Part shown: positions 1 through 8,994 of the stretch, piece after piece
Layout: the number at the start of each line of letters is the position of its first letter
Numbering within the stretch: the stretch's first letter is position 1
Source of the DNA: Cloacibacterium rupense
GTDB lineage: Bacteria > Bacteroidota > Bacteroidia > Flavobacteriales > Weeksellaceae
Direction: 5' to 3'
Assembly: GCF_014645495.1 (NCBI RefSeq)
Contig: NZ_BMLV01000002.1
Coordinates: 487,191-551,190 of the forward strand
Length of the DNA stretch: 64,000 nt
Notes under the pieces: generated by a model
Seen by the model: the letters and a program-made list of their open reading frames with translations, nothing else
What the model was told of the DNA's origin: nothing
The model's database searches: none
Made by a program: the position numbers and the translations under genes

Positions 1-747
1 TGAAATAATGAATTCAAAAGTTACCGCATCTTCGAATCGGGTTTTCAACAATTCGCAATAGGTCTTTGCAAAATCTATTTCTTCTTCTACCGAAACCAAT
101 TCTTTGTCTTTTTGTTCGAGAACATATCTGTAAATCTTTGACATTGAGTTCGTAAACTGTTGTGCTTGCTTTGGGTTTTCTTCAATCAGAGAATCTAAAA
201 CATTCAGAGAATTGAATAAAAAATGCGGGTCTAATTGATTTTTAAGACTTTCAAATTGTGCATTGGCAGATTTAGCGATGAGTTTTTGTTCGACTACTTC
301 TTTTTTAGCATTTTGTTTCATAGCCTGCATAAAACCTTTAGCGTGAAGAAATGCCGAGATAAGTAATGCAAAATTGATAAAAAACCAATTGGTAAAATTC
401 CATTTTGAACTGAAAAATTCTGCGGGATTTAAACCTTGAATTAGTACAAAATTGATGTAATTGAGAAGGTATGTTAAAGAAATATTTAAAATTAATGTGC
501 CAAGGATGGCAAAGATTGTTCTTTTATTAGTTTCTTCTGACCAAGAAAATTTTTTGTCAAGATAATCATTTAGAAAACCATTACCAATCCCGTATCCAAA
601 AGTGTACATTACTGAAATAAGGAAAGTATAGATGTAGTTTTCTAATGATTTTTCGGGTGAGGTCAAGAGGAAAAACAAGATGCTTCCTCCGAAACTTATC
701 CAAAGTAACGTTTTAAGGCTTTTTCTAAAATTTTCTATGGAGAACAT
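1..747 (-). CDS. LytS/YehU-type sensor histidine kinase, C-terminus cut by the window edge
   Basis: The reading frame starts at the ATG at 747 and stays open to the left edge (249 codons). The N-terminal half holds several hydrophobic segments, consistent with a membrane-embedded sensor. It is followed by a cytoplasmic linker and the H-box QLDPHFLFNSLN, which is the hallmark of the His_kinase family (PF06580) of LytS/AlgZ-type kinases. The HATPase part lies off the window. Kinases of this family normally phosphorylate LytTR-type response regulators, so such a regulator is probably the next gene to the left. The 2TM gene lies 17 nt upstream in the same operon. LytTR-like direct repeats occur in the promoter of this operon and of the next two genes. 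Confidence 0.9.
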   Translation of the reverse strand, partial: MFSIENFRKSLKTLLWISFGGSILFFLLTSPEKSLENYIYTFLISVMYTFGYGIGNGFLNDYLDKKFSWSEETNKRTIFAILGTLILNISLTYLLNYINFVLIQGLNPAEFFSSKWNFTNWFFINFALLISAFLHAKGFMQAMKQNAKKEVVEQKLIAKSANAQFESLKNQLDPHFLFNSLNVLDSLIEENPKQAQQFTNSMSKIYRYVLEQKDKELVSVEEEIDFAKTYCELLKTRFEDAVTFEFIIS

Positions 748-764
748 TTCTAAAAATTTACTAA

Positions 765-1052
765 TTATTTGTTCATATATTCTTTAATTTTTCTTTCTTC
801 CCAGTTGTTACCTAGGATAAAATCTGGTGCAAAAACAGACATGGCGTGTGCCAATAAACCGAATCCCCAGAAAAGGGCCGTCATATAACCATCTGTATTA
901 GCAAAACCTTTGTTGGCGATCACACTGTTTGAAACTATAATCATTAGGTTTACACAAATATAAACAATCGCGTGAATGTAAAAACCTTTAATTCTTTTTA
1001 CTTTTCTTTTGGCCATTTCTAATTTGCTGTTGGTTGTGTTGTAAGTTTCCAT
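765..1052 (-). CDS. 2TM domain protein
   Basis: This is a 95-residue protein with a basic N-terminus (about residues 13-22) and two hydrophobic segments near residues 24-46 and 57-75. They are followed by a conserved-looking tail (NNWEERKIKEYM). The pattern matches the 2TM domain (PF13239), which in Bacteroidota occurs alone next to, or fused to, LytS-type histidine kinases. It is the first gene of an operon with the kinase at 1-747. Its promoter has a TAAAGGTA box (minus-strand TACCTTTA) at 1112-1119 and two direct repeats at 1153-1182. It probably modulates or anchors the kinase, but that role is inferred from context. Confidence 0.85.
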   Translation of the reverse strand: METYNTTNSKLEMAKRKVKRIKGFYIHAIVYICVNLMIIVSNSVIANKGFANTDGYMTALFWGFGLLAHAMSVFAPDFILGNNWEERKIKEYMNK

Positions 1053-1111: not shown

Positions 1112-1182
1112 TAAAGGTATTGTAGGAGAGGATGTTTTCAAATTATATGTTACTGAACGGTAATTTTTTTGTACTGAACGGT
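1112..1182 (-). promoter_or_regulatory. Promoter with LytTR-like direct repeats upstream of the 2TM-kinase operon
   Basis: On the minus strand ACCGTTCAG occurs twice, at 1153-1161 and 1174-1182, 21 bp apart (12-bp gap). Both copies fit the published LytTR-family consensus [TA][AC][CA]GTTN[AG][TG] with a 12-13 bp spacer. A -7-like box, TACCTTTA, lies at 1112-1119, 34 bp from the proximal repeat. The same geometry recurs before the next two genes. Confidence 0.7.
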
Positions 1183-1188
1183 ATTTTC

Positions 1189-1241
1189 AAGGGTTCCCCT
1201 CTTTCAGAAGGGTGGCTGAGCGAAGCGAAGTCGGGGTGTCA
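1189..1241 (+). repeat. R1 repeat copy A (GAGCGAAGCGAA centre)
   Basis: The copy begins GGGTTCCCCTC, forms a small hairpin (CCCCTCT/AGAAGGG around TTC), then runs through GGC, the centre TGAGCGAAGCGAA, and ends GTCGGGGTGTCA. The unit also occurs at 4481 and 8431, and with other centres at 2083 and 8941. It lies directly upstream of the LytTR-like sites of the 2TM operon. Confidence 0.85.
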
Positions 1242-1256
1242 AAAAAATAAAAAAAC

Positions 1257-1297
1257 AAAAAACCCTTTTTGCGTTTGGAACGTAAAAAGGGTTTTGA
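1257..1297 (-). terminator. Rho-independent terminator of the 1316-1972 gene
   Basis: The stem AACCCTTTTTGCG / CGTAAAAAGGGTT has a TTTGGAA loop and A/T-rich flanks that become a U tract on the minus strand. It starts about 20 nt past the stop codon of the secreted TPR-like gene. Confidence 0.75.
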
Positions 1298-1315
1298 AAA
1301 AATCTAATTGATAGT

Positions 1316-1972
1316 TTATTTAGCCTGAGAGATAAAATAATTCGCTTCGCCTTGTCCCCAATTTGGATCAACAGAAGATTTTATTTTGTAAGTTTTGAAT
1401 TGTTCCAAAGCTTTCTTGAAAAGTTCAATACCTTTAGATTTACTTCCCCCGAATTGCTCAGGAGTGTAATATAAATCTTCGGCTTCTAGAATGGAAATTC
1501 TAGGATTTTCAGGATCCAATTCTTTAGCTTTAGCTAATGCTTGTTGTGCGGCTTGGCCTTCGGTTTGCCATCTTTCCATAGGATTTACCATCATTTTCAA
1601 TCCGTGGTTCATTTTTTTCAAAAGAAAAATTTCTGCGTTATTTGGCGAAAGCGCTTCAGCTTTGTCAATATAATTTTGAGCTTCTTTTGCTACATCATCT
1701 AATTGAGCGACTTGATTTTTCTGCATCAGCTCTCTTCCTTTTTTGATGATAGAAAGAGCGGCATAATAATACGGTTGCCAAAGTGTTTTTTCTTTGTCTC
1801 CAATTCTTGCAAAATCATTGGCTTGAGCAGTGTAATCATCAGGATTAGCTTTAGGCATTTCAATCATTTGAACTTTTGGAAGCATCGCTTTTTCGTAAGC
1901 AGTTTGAGCGAAGCTGTAAGTTGTTGTAAATGTGATTGCAAGGGCTAAAATGGTTTTTTGTAACGTTTTCAT
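1316..1972 (-). CDS. Secreted TPR-like protein
   Basis: This 218-residue protein has a clear signal peptide (MKTLQKTILALAITF, cleavage after about residue 22, before TAYEK). The mature part is helical and has repeats of TPR type, for example YIDKAEALSPNNAEIFLL near residues 101-118 and AKELDPENPRISILEAEDLY near 149-168. It is probably periplasmic. No enzyme motif is visible. It lies between the TonB-dependent receptor and the 2TM-kinase operon, and its promoter carries the same spaced direct repeats, so it is likely a co-regulated partner of the receptor. The specific function is unknown. Confidence 0.8.
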   Translation of the reverse strand: MKTLQKTILALAITFTTTYSFAQTAYEKAMLPKVQMIEMPKANPDDYTAQANDFARIGDKEKTLWQPYYYAALSIIKKGRELMQKNQVAQLDDVAKEAQNYIDKAEALSPNNAEIFLLKKMNHGLKMMVNPMERWQTEGQAAQQALAKAKELDPENPRISILEAEDLYYTPEQFGGSKSKGIELFKKALEQFKTYKIKSSVDPNWGQGEANYFISQAK

Positions 1973-2007
1973 ATTAACTGTTTTTTAATTGTTTAAATTT
2001 TATGGTT

Positions 2008-2078
2008 CAAAGATATATTGATAGTTGTGTTTTTAAAATTTTAGTTCACCGAATGGTTGTTTTTCTTAACTGAATGGT
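2008..2078 (-). promoter_or_regulatory. Promoter with LytTR-like direct repeats upstream of the TPR-like gene
   Basis: A -7 box TATCTTTG (minus strand) lies at 2008-2015. The direct repeats ACCATTCGG (2049-2057) and ACCATTCAG (2070-2078) are 21 bp apart, and the proximal copy is 34 bp from the box. The core reads ATT where the LytTR consensus has GTT, so the match is weaker than at 1153-1182, but spacing and position are identical. Confidence 0.6.
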
Positions 2079-2082
2079 TTTT

Positions 2083-2141
2083 ACTACCCCGTCAAAATTT
2101 TCTTCTTGGAAAATTTTGCCACCCCTTCTACAGAAGGAGAA
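2083..2141 (-). repeat. R1 repeat copy B, variant with AAAATTTT centre
   Basis: It reads TACCCCGTC, then a palindromic centre AAAATTTTC..GGAAAATTTT, then GCCACCCC and an arm hairpin (CCCCTTCT/AGAAGGAG). The outer arms correspond to copies A, C and D but the centre is unrelated. It lies 14 nt past the stop of the TonB-dependent receptor and abuts the direct repeats of the next promoter. Confidence 0.65.
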
Positions 2142-2155
2142 TATTTACAGGCTAT

Positions 2156-4369
2156 TTATAAATTATTATTAATCGCTTCTTGTGTTTTATCAGTTCCGAA
2201 ACTGATAAACCAACCTACAAAAACAAAGGTGTCTACTGGTGGTTTTATAGCAGAAGAACGCATTCCGTCACTAGAAAAATTATAACCAAATATGTTTTTA
2301 GCTCCTAAAACATTGTTGATTGCCAGAACAAAAACTGAGAAAGATTTTGCGTCTTTTTTACCAATACTAGGCACGTAATTTACACTGAAATTCAATACGT
2401 TGTAGTCTTTTACTTTTCCTTGGTTTTTAAGAACTGTATTTCCGTTTTCTTCTACAAAATTGTAGTAAGGTCTTCCAGAATTGTAGTTGTAAGAAAGGTT
2501 AAACCCAGTTTTCCATTCGGTGATAAATTTTTTAGCTACAACAGAAACGGTGTGTTTTGCAGCAAAATTTGGGAATAACGCTTGATTGTAGTTCAGATAT
2601 TCTCTTTTAGAATCTAGGTAAGAGTAAGAAATCCAATAGTCAATATTTTTCAAAGTTTTTTTGTCTCTCCAGAAAAGTTCCACCCCTTTTGCATAACCGC
2701 TTCCGTTGTTATTGATGGCAACAGGTCTGTAAAGATTGGTAGAAGTTTTTAGTAAATCTTCATATTTTTTGTAAAAAGTTTCCAATCTTAAGCTTCTTCC
2801 ATCTACGTTTCTTTGAACTTGAAAAATATAATGGTCAGCTCTCTGATAATTCGGGTTATAATTGGCATCAAAATATCTGCTTTCTGGATTTTGATAAAAA
2901 ATTCCATAAGCTAATGAGCTTGTCCAGTCCTTTGAAATTCTGTAACCTAAGGCAAATCTTGGAGAAAAATTCCATTGTTTGATGGCGTCTGAATGTTCTG
3001 CTCTTGCTCCTACTTGAACAGATAAATTATTGCTAATTCCTAAATTGGTTTCTGCAAACAATGAAGTGATTTTATCTTTGAAAATATAATTTTCATTAGC
3101 AATAGAGACCCAAGTTTTCTCTTGAGAGTCATTAAATTCTACACCTGCTTTTATGTTAGAAATTTTATATAATTTTCTTTCGATTACGGCTTTTGCGTTG
3201 AAATAATTTCCTTTAGAATCTAAGTCATAACCGAATACTTCCGAGCCGTTTTTTTCATTTTTAAAGTTTAAAATGTTTTGGTTAAAAGTATATGAACTAC
3301 CTAAACTCAAAGTGTATTTACCATATTTTTCTCTGTAAGAAAGTGAATGAAAAGTATTTTTACCTTTTTGGTTGATTTTGTCAGTATCAGAATTACCTTC
3401 TAAACTAGGGAAAGCTAATTTCATAGAACTGCCATCATAACTACCATAATATTTGATAAAACCGCCGCCTTTTGTTTTAATTCTAAAATTTCCGTTACCT
3501 CCAAAACTTTGTGGAGCTTTTTCGAAATCTGTATTAAAATTAAGAATTTTTTGCATCAATTCTAAGTTAGAATATCCTAAAGAAGCACCAAAAGAATGTG
3601 TACGCTCTTTATTCACTTGCTGAATGGTGCCACTTGCAAAAATGGGAGAAATCCCGAAATCTGCAGAATTTCTTTCTGGCAAATCTATACTTTCTAAAGC
3701 CAAAATTCCTGACAATGCTTGTCCGTACAAAGCAGAATAACCACCGCTTGAGAAAACATTTCCTTTAAAAAGGGTAGTGTTCAGCCTATCCATTGCTTTA
3801 ATTCCTGGAACAGAATTGCCAAAATAATTATTCACCAAATTTCCGTCCATAAAAAACTTAGTTTCAGAGCCTGTTCCTCCTCTCACGAAAAGACCTTCAG
3901 ATTCTCCTACTTTTTGAACGCCCGGTTGTGTTTCTAAAAATGAGGTGATTTGTGCATTAGAACCAGCGGTAGTAAGAACATCCATTGGTGTAAAAAGTGC
4001 TGAAGCGCGTTTTTTATCACTTGCTTCCATACTTCCTGCGGAAATAACTACCGCGTCTATTTCGTTCACCGATTCTTTTAGTTGAACGTTTAAAGCAATG
4101 CTTTTGTCTTCAATATTTAAAGGTTTTTCAATTTCTATAAATTTGGGATGAGAGAAAACCAGCGTTAGATTTCCTTTTTCTGTAGTTTCAAATTTGTAAT
4201 TCCCAGCTTCATCTGTTGTAGCGCCATCATAAGTGTCTTTCAGGGAAACTGAAACGTCTTTTAGGGGTTTGCTATTTCTTCCTAAAACCTTTCCAGAAAT
4301 GGTGATTTGTGAGAATAAAGTTAGCGATAAGATAAAAGTAAAAGCAAAAGTTAAAATACGAGTTTGCAT
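2156..4369 (-). CDS. TonB-dependent receptor with carboxypeptidase-like N-terminal domain
   Basis: From the ATG at 4369 the protein has 737 residues. It starts with a signal peptide (MQTRILTFAFTFIL, cleavage near SQ at residue 21). An upstream in-frame ATG at 4432 would bury this signal, so the shorter start is preferred. Next come a CarboxypepD_reg-like beta-sandwich (about 22-105), a plug domain (about 120-240, with GVQKVGESEGLFVRGG), and a long beta-barrel. It should sit in the outer membrane and import an unknown ligand using ExbBD-TonB energy. The promoter carries LytTR-like repeats at 4432-4461. No SusD partner is adjacent, so polysaccharide uptake of the SusCD kind is unlikely. Confidence 0.92.
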   Translation of the reverse strand: MQTRILTFAFTFILSLTLFSQITISGKVLGRNSKPLKDVSVSLKDTYDGATTDEAGNYKFETTEKGNLTLVFSHPKFIEIEKPLNIEDKSIALNVQLKESVNEIDAVVISAGSMEASDKKRASALFTPMDVLTTAGSNAQITSFLETQPGVQKVGESEGLFVRGGTGSETKFFMDGNLVNNYFGNSVPGIKAMDRLNTTLFKGNVFSSGGYSALYGQALSGILALESIDLPERNSADFGISPIFASGTIQQVNKERTHSFGASLGYSNLELMQKILNFNTDFEKAPQSFGGNGNFRIKTKGGGFIKYYGSYDGSSMKLAFPSLEGNSDTDKINQKGKNTFHSLSYREKYGKYTLSLGSSYTFNQNILNFKNEKNGSEVFGYDLDSKGNYFNAKAVIERKLYKISNIKAGVEFNDSQEKTWVSIANENYIFKDKITSLFAETNLGISNNLSVQVGARAEHSDAIKQWNFSPRFALGYRISKDWTSSLAYGIFYQNPESRYFDANYNPNYQRADHYIFQVQRNVDGRSLRLETFYKKYEDLLKTSTNLYRPVAINNNGSGYAKGVELFWRDKKTLKNIDYWISYSYLDSKREYLNYNQALFPNFAAKHTVSVVAKKFITEWKTGFNLSYNYNSGRPYYNFVEENGNTVLKNQGKVKDYNVLNFSVNYVPSIGKKDAKSFSVFVLAINNVLGAKNIFGYNFSSDGMRSSAIKPPVDTFVFVGWFISFGTDKTQEAINNNL

Positions 4370-4390
4370 AATTGTTTGTTTTTGATGGAG

Positions 4391-4461
4391 CAAAGGTATT
4401 TTAGCTTCATTTTGAAATGAAATAAGTTTCACCGAATGGTAAGAATAATCTACTGAACTGT
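4391..4461 (-). promoter_or_regulatory. Promoter with LytTR-like direct repeats upstream of the TonB receptor
   Basis: The minus-strand -7 box TACCTTTG lies at 4391-4398, 22 nt before the start codon, and I see no TTTG at the -33 position. The repeats ACCATTCGG (4432-4440) and ACAGTTCAG (4453-4461) are 21 bp apart, and the proximal one is 34 bp from the box. The distal copy fits the LytTR consensus fully. The layout suggests activator-dependent transcription. Confidence 0.65.
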
Positions 4462-4480
4462 AATTTTTTTAATTTTTCTT

Positions 4481-4533
4481 TGACACCCCGACTTCGCTTC
4501 GCTCAGCCACCCCTCTGAAAGAGGGGAACCCTT
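4481..4533 (-). repeat. R1 repeat copy C
   Basis: This is an inverted copy of the unit at 1189 and 8431. It runs TGACACCCCGAC, TTCGCTTCGCTCA, GCCACCCC, with a perfect 7-bp arm hairpin CCCCTCT-GAA-AGAGGGG, then AACCC. It lies between the AraC-type gene and the receptor promoter. Confidence 0.88.
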
Positions 4534-4575
4534 CTAACAAATTTAATTCAATTTAGAAATTGGGATTTCAAAAGA

Positions 4576-5481
4576 CTAAATTATAGGAATGCAAAAATCT
4601 ACCCTACATTTTTTCTCTGGATGTTCTTTAAAATTATTGTGATAAATTTCAAAAGGAAAAGTTCTTTTATATTGATAACCGTTTTCATTCATCCAAAGGA
4701 AAAGACTTTGCCACGCTTTTTCAAATTCGTGAATGCCAATAAAGTAACTTCCTACAATATGTCTCCCTTTTGGTAACGTTTCAGGGAAAATTTCGCCATC
4801 GGTTTTTATAGGTTCATCAAGTAGCATACAAGCGTGAATTCTCACTTTATCTGGTGCCGTAACTTTGAAACTATCGTGATAAACAGAAATCATTTTCACG
4901 TTTTCTCTCGGGAAAAGATTTTTAGAAATTCCCCAAGAAATCAACTTATTGTAAGCATTATCAATATTTTGGACACCTATACTTAAAACAGATGCGAGAT
5001 TCATTTCGGGCAATTCTTTTACTTCAATTTTTGCGTTGGTTTCCATAAAATTTTTCATTTGATTGATGTTGTAAAGATATTGCTGAAAAACAACTTCTTT
5101 TTGTCCGATATTGCTATTCATTGGTAAAATCTTGCTGAAATATTCAGGAGATTTTTTCCTAAAATCCGTCGGAGAAATGCCAAAATATTTCTTGAAAGTT
5201 TTGCTGAAAGTAGAATTGCTTTTGAAGCCAACTTCCGAGAAAATTTCTTCTAAAGATTTATTTTTTTGATGAGAAAGCAACATTGCAGATTTTTCCATCC
5301 TGTTTCTGGTGATGTATTCTTGCAAGGTTTCACCAATAATTCCTCGGAAAATTCTGTGAAAATGAAACGGAGAATAGTTGCCTGTTTCTGCTAAATTTTC
5401 AAGCGAAAGTTCATTGTCCAAATTCTCTTCAATGAAATTGAGTACTTTTCTAATTCTTTTGATGTGTTCTTCGGAAGTCAA
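4576..5481 (-). CDS. AraC-family regulator with GyrI-like effector domain
   Basis: This 301-residue protein has two AraC-type helix-turn-helix motifs in residues 1-110 (LENLAETGNYSPFHFHRIFR and the second-HTH signature GFKSNSTFSKTFKKYFGISP). After a linker, residues of about 150-301 resemble the GyrI-like / AraC effector-binding domain (KELPEMNLASVLSIG, then the terminal DFCIPI). Members of this architecture (Rob/SoxS-like) sense small amphipathic molecules. The ligand and target genes are not evident, and the gene stands alone. A TATATTTG box on the minus strand lies 15 nt before the start. Confidence 0.92.
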   Translation of the reverse strand: MTSEEHIKRIRKVLNFIEENLDNELSLENLAETGNYSPFHFHRIFRGIIGETLQEYITRNRMEKSAMLLSHQKNKSLEEIFSEVGFKSNSTFSKTFKKYFGISPTDFRKKSPEYFSKILPMNSNIGQKEVVFQQYLYNINQMKNFMETNAKIEVKELPEMNLASVLSIGVQNIDNAYNKLISWGISKNLFPRENVKMISVYHDSFKVTAPDKVRIHACMLLDEPIKTDGEIFPETLPKGRHIVGSYFIGIHEFEKAWQSLFLWMNENGYQYKRTFPFEIYHNNFKEHPEKKCRVDFCIPII

Positions 5482-6496: not shown

Positions 6497-6593
6497 TTTT
6501 TTAATGTTTTCTTAATTAGTAAGACTTTTGAAAAAATGTTACAAAAACAAAAATTTTTTTTTCATCAAAAACTTTCGCAGAGAATTTAATTTA

Positions 6594-6601
6594 TAATTTT
6601 G
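6594..6601 (+). promoter_or_regulatory. -7 box of the DUF885 gene
   Basis: TAATTTTG matches TAnnTTTG and ends 20 nt before the ATG at 6621. Confidence 0.45.
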
Positions 6602-6620
6602 TGAGAAATAGAAATTGAAA

Positions 6621-8411
6621 ATGAAAACATTACGAAACGCAGTGATAGCGATTTTTGCAGGATTAAGTTTAATGATTAGTTGTAAAAAATCTGATATAGC
6701 CTTGCCAAAATCCGAAGCCAATATAGACAGCATCTCCTCTAAATATTATGAAGGTTACCTTAAAATGTATCCGCTAGAAGCTACAATGCAAGGCGATTCT
6801 AGATATAATGATTTGCTTTCTAACAATATAAGTAATGAGTTTATTTCTAAAGAAATAGAGTTCTACACCGAAACTCAAAAAAAATTAAAATCAATAGAGT
6901 ATGATGATTTGTCTGATGAACAAAAAACGGTGTATGATGTTCTAGATTATACATTGAAAGATAAAATTGAAAGATATGCCTATCATCCAGAATTGTTGCC
7001 TTTTAGTCAGTTCGAAGGATTGCCGCTAGATTTTCCGTTATTAGGAAGTGCCGAAGGAAATCAACCCTTTAAGACAACCAAAGATTATGACAATTGGTTA
7101 AAAAGAATAGACGCTTTCGTGGTTTGGATGAATACGGCGGAGAAAAATTTCAGAGAAGGAATGAAACAAAACGTGGTTCTTCCCAAAAAATTGGTCGTTA
7201 AAATGATTCCTCAAATGCACAGCGAAGAAATTATTTCGGAGAATTTTGAGAAAAATATTTTTTATGGACCAATTAAAAAAATGCCAAAAAACTTCTCTGA
7301 AAAAGATAAAGAAAAATACACCAAACTATACCAAGAAGCCATCAAAACAAAGATTATACCTATTTACCAAAAAATGGGTGATTTTCTGGAAAAAGAATAT
7401 TTGCCAAAAGCCAGAAACACAGATGGAATAAATGCGATACCGAACGGAAAAAACACCTACGAGTTTTTAGCTCAATCTTGGACGACTACCAATCTAAAGC
7501 CTGAAGAAATCAATAAAATAGGGCTTGAACAAGTTGCGATGTTAAGAGCCGAAATGGAAAAGGTGAAAACACAATTAGGTTTCAAAGGAAGTCTAGAGCA
7601 ATTCTTGACCAGCTTGAAAACCGATAAAAAAGCAATGCCATATAAAACACCAGAAGAAGTAATTGTTGCTTTCAACGGAATTCTGAAAAAAATAGAACCG
7701 AAATTGCCTTCAATGTTCAGTAAATTCCCGAAAACTCCTTTCGAGATTAGAAGAACAGAAAAATTTAGAGAAGCGAGTGCAAGCGCAGAATACAAACAAG
7801 GAACTCCAGACGGAAAACGCCCAGGGATTTTCTACACCCCAATTCCAGACGCTACCAAATATAATGTAACCAATGGTTTTGAATCTTTATTCCTCCACGA
7901 AGCTATTCCGGGACATCATTACCAAGTTTCGCTTCAACAAGAAAATACAGAAATTCCTAAATTTATGAGATTTGGTTGGTTCGGAGCTTATGGTGAAGGT
8001 TGGGCTCATTACACCGAAACGCTCGGTCCAGAATTTGGTTTATATACAGACCCGTATCAAAAAATGGGATATTTAAGCGATCAAATGTTGCGCGCAGTTC
8101 GCCTCGTTGTTGATACAGGAATTCACACAGGGAAAATGACCAGAGAAGAAGCCATTAAATATTACCTGAGCAATATTTCTGATTCCGAAGAAGGTGCAAC
8201 CGCAGCAATTGAGCGTTATATGGCAATTCCAGGACAAGCATTAGGCTATAAAATTGGGTCTCTTAAAATTCTAGAATTAAGAGCGAAATACCAAAAACAA
8301 CTTGGGAATAAATTCAACCTAGCTAAATTTCATGATGAAATTTTGAATCAAGGTTGTCTTCCGTTATCTGTTCTCGAAAGAAAAATGGAACTTTGGGCGA
8401 AGAAACAGTGA
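6621..8411 (+). CDS. DUF885 family lipoprotein, putative zinc peptidase
   Basis: The start is set at the ATG 6621 (596 residues); a TTG six bases upstream is in frame but less likely. The N-terminus is a lipoprotein signal (AGLSLMISCKK, with the lipidated Cys near residue 21). The motif HEAIPGHHYQ at about residues 426-435 and the later GEGWAHYTE give the HExxxxH-plus-Glu arrangement typical of DUF885 proteins, which are thought to be metallopeptidase-like. The length is usual for the family. It probably acts in the periplasm or at the outer membrane. The substrate is unknown. The gene is single, followed by R1 copy D 20 nt after the stop. Confidence 0.9.
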   Translation: MKTLRNAVIAIFAGLSLMISCKKSDIALPKSEANIDSISSKYYEGYLKMYPLEATMQGDSRYNDLLSNNISNEFISKEIEFYTETQKKLKSIEYDDLSDEQKTVYDVLDYTLKDKIERYAYHPELLPFSQFEGLPLDFPLLGSAEGNQPFKTTKDYDNWLKRIDAFVVWMNTAEKNFREGMKQNVVLPKKLVVKMIPQMHSEEIISENFEKNIFYGPIKKMPKNFSEKDKEKYTKLYQEAIKTKIIPIYQKMGDFLEKEYLPKARNTDGINAIPNGKNTYEFLAQSWTTTNLKPEEINKIGLEQVAMLRAEMEKVKTQLGFKGSLEQFLTSLKTDKKAMPYKTPEEVIVAFNGILKKIEPKLPSMFSKFPKTPFEIRRTEKFREASASAEYKQGTPDGKRPGIFYTPIPDATKYNVTNGFESLFLHEAIPGHHYQVSLQQENTEIPKFMRFGWFGAYGEGWAHYTETLGPEFGLYTDPYQKMGYLSDQMLRAVRLVVDTGIHTGKMTREEAIKYYLSNISDSEEGATAAIERYMAIPGQALGYKIGSLKILELRAKYQKQLGNKFNLAKFHDEILNQGCLPLSVLERKMELWAKKQ

Positions 8412-8430: not shown

Positions 8431-8484
8431 GAAGGGTTCCCCTCTTTCAGAGGGGTGGCTGAGCGAAGCGAAGTCGGGGTGTCA
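8431..8484 (+). repeat. R1 repeat copy D, left flank of the DUF559 gene
   Basis: The copy contains GGGTTCCCCTC, a perfect hairpin CCCCTCT-TTC-AGAGGGG, the centre TGAGCGAAGCGAA and GTCGGGGTGTCA. It is in the same orientation as copy A and opposite to copy E on the other side of the DUF559 gene. Confidence 0.9.
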
Positions 8485-8501
8485 AGAAAATATTTTAGAA
8501 A

Positions 8502-8921
8502 ATGGAAGCCATTAGAATTATAAAATTCAAAAATTATGAAATCAAAAAAAATCTAATAGAGAATTTACCTTACAATCCAAAGTTGAAAGAATTTGCTAAA
8601 AATCTAAGAAAATCCAGAAATCTGGCAGAAGTTCTTTTTTGGAATGAGGTAAAATCAAAAAAGTTTCATTCTTTAGATTTTGATAGACAAAGAGTTATTG
8701 ATAATTGTATTGTTGATTTTTATGTGAAAAGTCTTGGTTTGATAATAGAAATTGATGGTTGGTATCACGAATTTAAAAAAGAAAAAGATGAGGTAAGACA
8801 AAAATATTTGGAAAGCCTTGGAATCAAATTTTTTCGAGTTTCTGATTTTGATGTAAAGAGAAATATGATGTTGGTTTTACAAGATTTAGAAAATTTTATT
8901 GTTGAAAATTATAAGTTGTAG
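8502..8921 (+). CDS. DUF559 (Vsr-like) endonuclease-domain protein
   Basis: This 139-residue protein fits the DUF559 family, which is related to the very-short-patch-repair and PD-(D/E)xK nuclease folds. Visible features are LRKSRNLAEVLFWNEV (conserved helix with Glu), DRQRVIDNCIVDFYV (acidic residue at the end of a strand) and LIIEIDGWYHE (E-x-D-G core), then FFRVSDFDV. No methylase or helicase partner is adjacent. The gene is framed by inverted R1 copies at 8431-8484 and 8941-8994, so it looks like the cargo or driver of a small repeat-bounded unit. The target and activity are unknown. Confidence 0.85.
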   Translation: MEAIRIIKFKNYEIKKNLIENLPYNPKLKEFAKNLRKSRNLAEVLFWNEVKSKKFHSLDFDRQRVIDNCIVDFYVKSLGLIIEIDGWYHEFKKEKDEVRQKYLESLGIKFFRVSDFDVKRNMMLVLQDLENFIVENYKL

Positions 8922-8940
8922 AAATTTCATTCTAATTTTT

Positions 8941-8994
8941 TGACACCACGTCATTCGTAAACGAATCACACCCCTCTGAAAGAGGGGAACCCAT
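8941..8994 (-). repeat. R1 repeat copy E, right flank of the DUF559 gene, variant centre
   Basis: It reads TGACACCACGTC, then a palindromic centre ATTCGTAAACGAAT, then CACACCCC and the same perfect arm hairpin CCCCTCT-GAA-AGAGGGG and AACCC as the other copies. The orientation is opposite to copy D. It lies between the convergent ends of the DUF559 gene and nth. Confidence 0.85.

Follow-up and report, generated by a model that had tools for sequence, protein, structure and literature searches.

What links three promoters that carry the same pair of direct repeats near the left end of a 64,000-nucleotide stretch of Cloacibacterium rupense DNA (NZ_BMLV01000002.1, positions 487,191 to 551,190; hereafter the window)? 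The repeats stand before an operon encoding 2TM proteins and a LytS-type histidine kinase, before the gene of a secreted TPR-like protein and before a TonB-dependent receptor gene. An earlier note on this DNA proposed that a LytTR response regulator encoded beside the kinase activates all three, forming one sensing-uptake unit. Sequence and model comparisons lead us to a similar and more specific answer, to which we give a probability of about 0.8: a LytS/LytTR system that includes 2TM proteins switches on a HusA/HusB-like uptake pair and, here and in part of the relatives, its own operon. The repeats and their promoter boxes, in window coordinates, are as follows.

1153 to 1182, minus strand: operator 1 (LytTR-type, predicted), ACCGTTCAG-N12-ACCGTTCAG, before the sensor (2TM-kinase-LytTR) operon; kept in relatives.
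2049 to 2078, minus strand: operator 2 (LytTR-type, predicted), ACCATTCAG-N12-ACCATTCGG, before the HusA-like gene; kept in relatives.
4432 to 4461, minus strand: operator 3 (LytTR-type, predicted), ACAGTTCAG-N12-ACCATTCGG, before the receptor gene; kept in relatives.
1112 to 1119, minus strand: -7-like box TACCTTTA of the 2TM-kinase-LytTR operon, read from the sequence.
2008 to 2015, minus strand: -7 box TATCTTTG of the HusA-like gene, read from the sequence.
4391 to 4398, minus strand: -7 box TACCTTTG of the receptor gene, read from the sequence.

All three pairs lie where the earlier note had placed them. Each consists of two 9-mers with a 12-base-pair (bp) spacer, and a pattern search confirmed that the 21 bp from start to start are identical at the three promoters. 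The distance of 34 bp to the -7-like box was likewise borne out, with 33 bases between the proximal repeat and a box that starts at base 34 in every case. TAnnTTTG is the Bacteroidota-type -7 consensus, and TACCTTTA lacks its final G. When the 3.17-Mb genome was scanned for ACMRTTCRG-N12-ACMRTTCRG without mismatches, only these three sites were found, all before genes of the system, and the reversed control gave none. Allowing up to two mismatches yielded seven matches over the whole genome against five in the reversed control, so the looser matches carry no meaning.

The operon behind operator 1 continues on the minus strand past the left edge of the window, in the order 2TM gene (95 amino acids), kinase-2TM gene, three 2TM genes, LytTR regulator and a gene of 104 amino acids. 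Four of its products are listed here.

765 to 1052, minus strand: stand-alone 2TM protein, 95 amino acids, first gene of the kinase/LytTR operon (2TM, 89.6 bits).
1 to 747, minus strand (whole gene at 6592-7938 of locus L012): LytS-type histidine kinase of 448 amino acids, N-terminal part in the window, with a C-terminal 2TM domain (His_kinase, PF06580, 88.9 bits; 2TM, 97.8 bits).
L012 4895-5638, off the window, same orientation as the kinase: LytTR response regulator, 247 amino acids (Response_reg, 44.2 bits; LytTR, 71.9 bits; both above cut-off).
L012 4573-4887, operon strand, after the regulator: lipoprotein-like protein of 104 amino acids with no Pfam or NCBIfam match.

The expectation that a LytTR regulator would be found next to the kinase, off the left edge, therefore held, since the operon encodes one about 1 kb past the kinase and behind the three 2TM genes. 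With its receiver and C-terminal LytTR domain it has the make-up of a LytTR two-component regulator; the genome encodes four LytTR proteins. The N-terminal part of the kinase appears hydrophobic by eye in an alignment, and its His_kinase domain lies behind putative membrane segments. In NCBIfam the best 25 of 28 matches to the regulator all fell far under their cut-offs; no match was obtained for the kinase, for one 2TM protein or for the 104-residue protein, and the receptor and the TPR-like protein had sub-cut-off matches only. LytTR operators are defined in PMC4847170 as two repeats of about 9-11 nucleotides with an 11-13-nucleotide spacer, and the pairs described here, 9-mers with a 12-nucleotide spacer that is nearly exclusive, have that form. 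We consider them very probably the operators of the LytTR system of the 2TM-kinase operon. The ending of the 104-residue protein looks, by eye, like a TonB-receptor plug motif.

The same exact pattern, together with its reversed control, was run over 296 genomes of the family. It occurred at 105 sites in 91 of the genomes, and the reversed pattern once. A hand tally placed 94 of the sites before genes of the system, namely 33 before 2TM genes, 24 before receptor genes, 13 before HusA-like genes (one of them, in L194, a short frame of 78 amino acids) and 24 before kinase genes (14 of these assigned from coordinates only). The remaining 11 comprise six before an alpha/beta hydrolase gene, two before a weakly ChaN-like gene and three that are apparently due to chance, of which those in L020 and L212 lie inside coding frames and that in L208 has no gene found after it.

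Upstream of the same genes in relatives, 139 pairs were spaced at 21 bp against one over the other 19 spacings, some genomes being counted twice. We therefore give de-duplicated counts of upstream regions holding a pair at 21 bp that scores at least 16 of 18, grouped by family from the loci that carry organism names. In Weeksellaceae such strong pairs were present before 39 of 54 receptor, 15 of 56 HusA-like, 38 of 82 kinase, 43 of 197 2TM and none of 81 regulator genes; the corresponding figures for Flavobacteriaceae were 8/16, 12/20, 1/29, 0/86 and 0/30. The mean did not exceed 0.53 regions at other spacings, or 0.02 in letter-shuffled sequence. The absence of a separate site before the regulator is expected, because the gene lies downstream in its operon. 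In the mainly Flavobacteriaceae set of loci (L161-L192) the pair at 21 bp was found in 21 of 70 upstream regions, with 0-2 at each other spacing and some genomes counted twice; this set included L172 (Chryseobacterium) and L173 (recorded as Flavobacterium sp.), both placed with Weeksellaceae in the de-duplicated count.

The promoter is fixed relative to the repeats as well. Among 157 distinct sites, from relatives and the window, a TAnnTTT box lay 33 or 34 nucleotides after the proximal repeat in 135, with the full TAnnTTTG in 115, and in the -33 region two Ts are conserved (96 and 92%) and the following G is not (31%). The 111 distinct kinase loci hold the regulator in at least 79 of 81 cases in Weeksellaceae and 29 of 30 in Flavobacteriaceae. 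Since some loci end early, all of these counts are lower bounds: at least 57/81 and 20/30 contain a HusA-like gene, at least 53/81 and 16/30 a receptor, and at least 74/81 and 17/30 one or more strong sites. The genome scan, the family scan and the spacing preference rule out chance repeats. The earlier interpretation gains support because the LytTR neighbour is present, repeats and spacing are kept in related genomes, and the motif is not equally frequent elsewhere (no match in the genome control; 105 sites against one in the family control).

The two genes behind operators 2 and 3 indicate what the system may serve.

1316 to 1972, minus strand: HusA-like secreted TPR-fold protein, 218 amino acids (phmmer match to 6bqs, E = 1.7e-29; Foldseek match to 6bqs).
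2156 to 4369, minus strand: TonB-dependent receptor, 737 amino acids, with a CarboxypepD_reg-like domain and a barrel, proposed HusB counterpart (TonB_dep_Rec_b-barrel, 71.6 bits; CarbopepD_reg_2, 58.7 bits).

Over residues 24-214 the secreted protein matches Porphyromonas gingivalis PG_2227 (6bqs, 6crl), titled HusA haemophore in the PDB. A model built on an alignment of 20 sequences (mean predicted local distance difference test score 91.2) found 6bqs as its only Foldseek match below 1e-3 (E = 4.8e-11; template modelling scores 0.75/0.81), and HusA is the only solved structure with an E value below 1e-3 by either sequence or fold. In HusA, L123, V124, W130 and Y164 contribute to the haem/porphyrin groove (PMC6173696), and the window protein has M, V, W and Y at these positions. 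They are hydrophobic or aromatic in most of 59 Weeksellaceae rows of an alignment that includes some genomes counted twice, with an aromatic residue at the W130 position in 58/59 and at the Y164 position in 59/59. Because these aromatic positions are kept there, the haem assignment is stronger for the window's family. The receptor gene is the next gene upstream of the HusA-like gene. The idea of one sensing-uptake unit is thus supported and sharpened, its secreted TPR-like protein now being HusA-like; binding of the sites by this regulator and activation through them are predicted. An AraC/GyrI-like regulator gene (4576 to 5481) adjoins the receptor gene, and its relatives lie beside the receptor in several loci of the same genus and of g20.

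A sample of 296 genomes from across the phylum yielded HusA-like genes in 81, and 51 of the genomes with a match lie outside Flavobacteriales. We inspected 20 loci from these 51, mostly from the top of the ranking. A TonB receptor adjoins the HusA-like gene in all 20, and a LytS-type kinase with a LytTR regulator (LytSR) is nearby in eight. The only 2TM match in the 20 loci was weak (29 bits, L282) and in a locus without LytSR. A looser half-site, ACNNYTCRK, picked after inspection of the loci, was paired at 21 bp in 9 of 16 receptor and HusA-like upstream regions of the eight LytSR loci (one of the nine pairs lies inside a receptor frame and is likely due to chance), and in none of the 24 regions from the 12 loci that lack LytSR; one of these 12, L280, has a weaker kinase/regulator pair further away on the opposite strand. 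The other 19 spacings gave 0-2 pairs each in the LytSR loci, eight in all. The strict variant ACRCTTCRK was uninformative over the 296 phylum genomes because it gave six matches, three of them at HusA-like loci, against five in the reversed control.

These data allow us to propose how the system might work. The membrane-bound LytS-type kinase, which has a 2TM domain and shares its operon with several small 2TM proteins, would sense a signal located at or within the membrane and would phosphorylate the LytTR regulator. Two regulator protomers would then occupy the two repeats, which are two helical turns apart on the same face of the DNA and just upstream of the -33/-7 promoter, and the bound regulator would activate transcription. 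It would act on the genes of the TonB receptor and of the HusA-like carrier (periplasmic or at the surface) and, by positive feedback, on its own sensor operon, with a secreted alpha/beta hydrolase as a further target in some relatives. The outcome would be induction of HusA/HusB-like uptake, most likely of haem or other porphyrins. Phosphotransfer, binding, activation and feedback, and haem or porphyrin as ligand or signal, are all steps that we infer, activation of the targets being probable from the geometry and haem or a porphyrin being the ligand that we favour, with less assurance.

Several observations weigh against this reading. Of the 129 family genomes that have a kinase match, no more than 39 contain an exact site; in the others it is degenerate or absent, and it does not stand before every gene in every clade. 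In particular, the single kinase region with a site among 29 from Flavobacteriaceae, against 38 of 82 from Weeksellaceae, means that autoregulation is not general. Several Polaribacter and Tenacibaculum kinase loci showed no HusA-like gene, receptor or site, within the limits set by the BLAST thresholds and the locus ends, and 12 of the 20 HusA-like loci outside Flavobacteriales have no LytSR pair on the uptake strand. The receptor is proposed as the HusB counterpart from its class and neighbourhood, the operator geometry could also serve repression, and the ligand groove is not uniform. In 22 further rows of the groove alignment, mainly from Flavobacteriaceae (two rows, L172 and the divergent L105, belong to the window's family and are omitted from the 59-row counts), the groove residues are for the most part lost: 21 rows have glycine at the W130 position and 16 at the Y164 position, so the ligand may differ there.

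It is accordingly a serious possibility, if a less probable one than haem or a porphyrin, that the HusA-like protein and its receptor import another substrate and that the regulon serves that substrate. Besides the altered groove residues, the receptor found no solved structure in the PDB even at E values up to 10, and TPR folds often bind peptides (PMC6173696). Against this stand the aromatic groove positions of the window's family, the exclusive match to HusA among solved structures, a further target gene whose product has a sub-threshold match to ChaN (17.1 against 27.7 bits; two near-identical copies), and the dependence of hus expression in P. gingivalis on iron and haem (PMC10100897).

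The sites might instead be LytTR operators from which the regulator represses the uptake genes until a signal arrives. Some LytTR proteins do repress, CoxC through repeats that overlap the -35 region (PMC11347149). We think this unlikely, as here the repeats end 33-34 nucleotides before the -7 box, upstream of the expected -33 region with its conserved TT, which is an activator-like layout, and the same site is often present before the sensor operon. That another regulator uses the sites, for example one of the three other LytTR proteins of the genome, is very unlikely: the sites stand before the operon that encodes the kinase-linked regulator; across clades the looser pair accompanies 9/16 regions with LytSR nearby and 0/24 without; and in 148 genomes searched both ways the exact site occurs in the 39 of 129 with a kinase match, the 19 without one holding a single site, inside a coding frame. 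Finally, operators 1 and 3 each have a common intergenic repeat just outside them, and this repeat also lies beside the operator of the G089 hydrolase gene, but the notion that the pairs are a by-product of this element has next to no credibility, being contradicted by operators conserved across the family and beyond and by a repeat core with seven genome copies, only two of them at operators.

The proposed LytS/LytTR system and its uptake pair can be set beside known systems. It resembles LytS/LytTR systems such as Escherichia coli YpdA/YpdB in its His_kinase-type membrane kinase and LytTR regulator, and BtsS/BtsR and Staphylococcus aureus AgrC/AgrA are further examples of this type. It differs from them in that the kinase is fused to and flanked by 2TM proteins and that the predicted targets are a TonB receptor, a HusA-like carrier and an autoregulated sensor operon, with a Bacteroidota-type -7 box. 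LytTR sites are elsewhere also two direct repeats of about 9 nucleotides with a 12-bp spacer, upstream of target promoters (PMC4847170, PMC11347149). The carbon monoxide oxidation regulators CoxC/RcoM share repeats two helical turns apart, and CoxC couples a histidine-containing membrane domain to LytTR; in contrast, sensor and LytTR are there one protein, the repeats number three, CoxC is a repressor, and the portions of the accounts available mention no TonB receptor. The likeness to the P. gingivalis Hus system (HusA, HusB) lies in the HusA-like protein, by sequence and fold, beside a TonB receptor; the differences are the nearby LytSR pair as predicted regulator and the partly changed groove residues. 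In P. gingivalis, PgFur and HaeSR regulate other genes of haem supply, and HusC/HusD are of unknown function (PMC10100897). Envelope stress of the phage-shock-protein-like kind was dropped as a candidate, as PMC11237479, which features both LytTR and a 2TM domain, does not in the parts available describe this arrangement. Five Flavobacterium johnsoniae lines that had coevolved with Burkholderia were each mutated in FJOH_RS09515 (LytTR) or FJOH_RS09520 (kinase), and the parts of the text available discuss only the LytTR mutation, as of unknown effect (PMC10197871, table 2 and text). We did not use this link, since the two locus numbers follow each other directly, which suggests that, unlike in the present loci, no 2TM genes lie between them.

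LytTR operators of such design and Hus uptake are thus already known, separately. We found no account joining them in the open-licence PMC literature, from queries that did not pair HusA/HusB directly with LytTR and result lists that, where long, were seen in part. The Flavobacteriales papers among the results that mention LytTR offer, in the portions at hand, inventories of genes, tallies, a proposed RpfC-YpdB pathway in one case or a bare reference, and no description of this regulon. The proposed system would link genes that appear here simply as '2TM domain', 'LytTR', 'TPR' and 'TonB receptor', and that occur in many Bacteroidota, to a regulator, to an operator and to haem/porphyrin scavenging as their probable function. 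It also opens the regulation of HusAB-type uptake, and the purpose of 2TM domains, to direct test. The phylum includes major gut, oral and environmental bacteria, in which the acquisition of haem and its regulation are under active study.

Two further genes may belong to the regulon. The secreted alpha/beta hydrolase before six family sites is S33-type in G089, a Cloacibacterium relative, and the other five are 47-50% identical to that copy. It is a credible extra target because in G089 it sits inside the locus with a site of its own; the window locus contained no match to it. The weakly ChaN-like gene (L210 3092-4150, and L220) encodes a protein of 352 amino acids with an exact operator in two genomes, the copies being 99% identical; ChaN is haem-binding.

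The 2TM proteins themselves carry recurrent histidines. Stand-alone copies have two in the predicted hairpin, both present in 161 of 298 and located at positions 27 and 69 of the 95-residue window protein; the 2TM domain of the kinase keeps the second in 109 of 120 and has asparagine at the first position in 107 of 120, some genomes being counted twice in these figures. By eye, the two histidines lie at similar depth toward the same side of the membrane. Given this placement, an assembly of 2TM units could coordinate haem and signal its level to the LytTR regulator, and the asparagine of most kinase copies means that a stand-alone 2TM partner would be needed. We consider it rather doubtful that the 2TM proteins and the kinase 2TM domain form such a membrane-embedded porphyrin/haem-sensing module. 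If they did, a HusAB-type regulon extending over much of the phylum would have its own intramembrane haem sensor, at least in Flavobacteriales.

The intergenic repeat mentioned above has the core CCCGACTTCGCTTCGCTCAGCCACC, which occurs in the genome seven times with up to three mismatches, three times exactly. In the window it lies at 1190-1243, 4480-4535 and 8435-8490, with variants recognised by eye near 2085-2140 and 8938-8993, and it resembles a small mobile unit. Besides its positions just outside operators 1 and 3, it stands beside a DUF559 gene (8502 to 8921; PF04480, 82.4 bits), which lies between one copy of the repeat and one variant.

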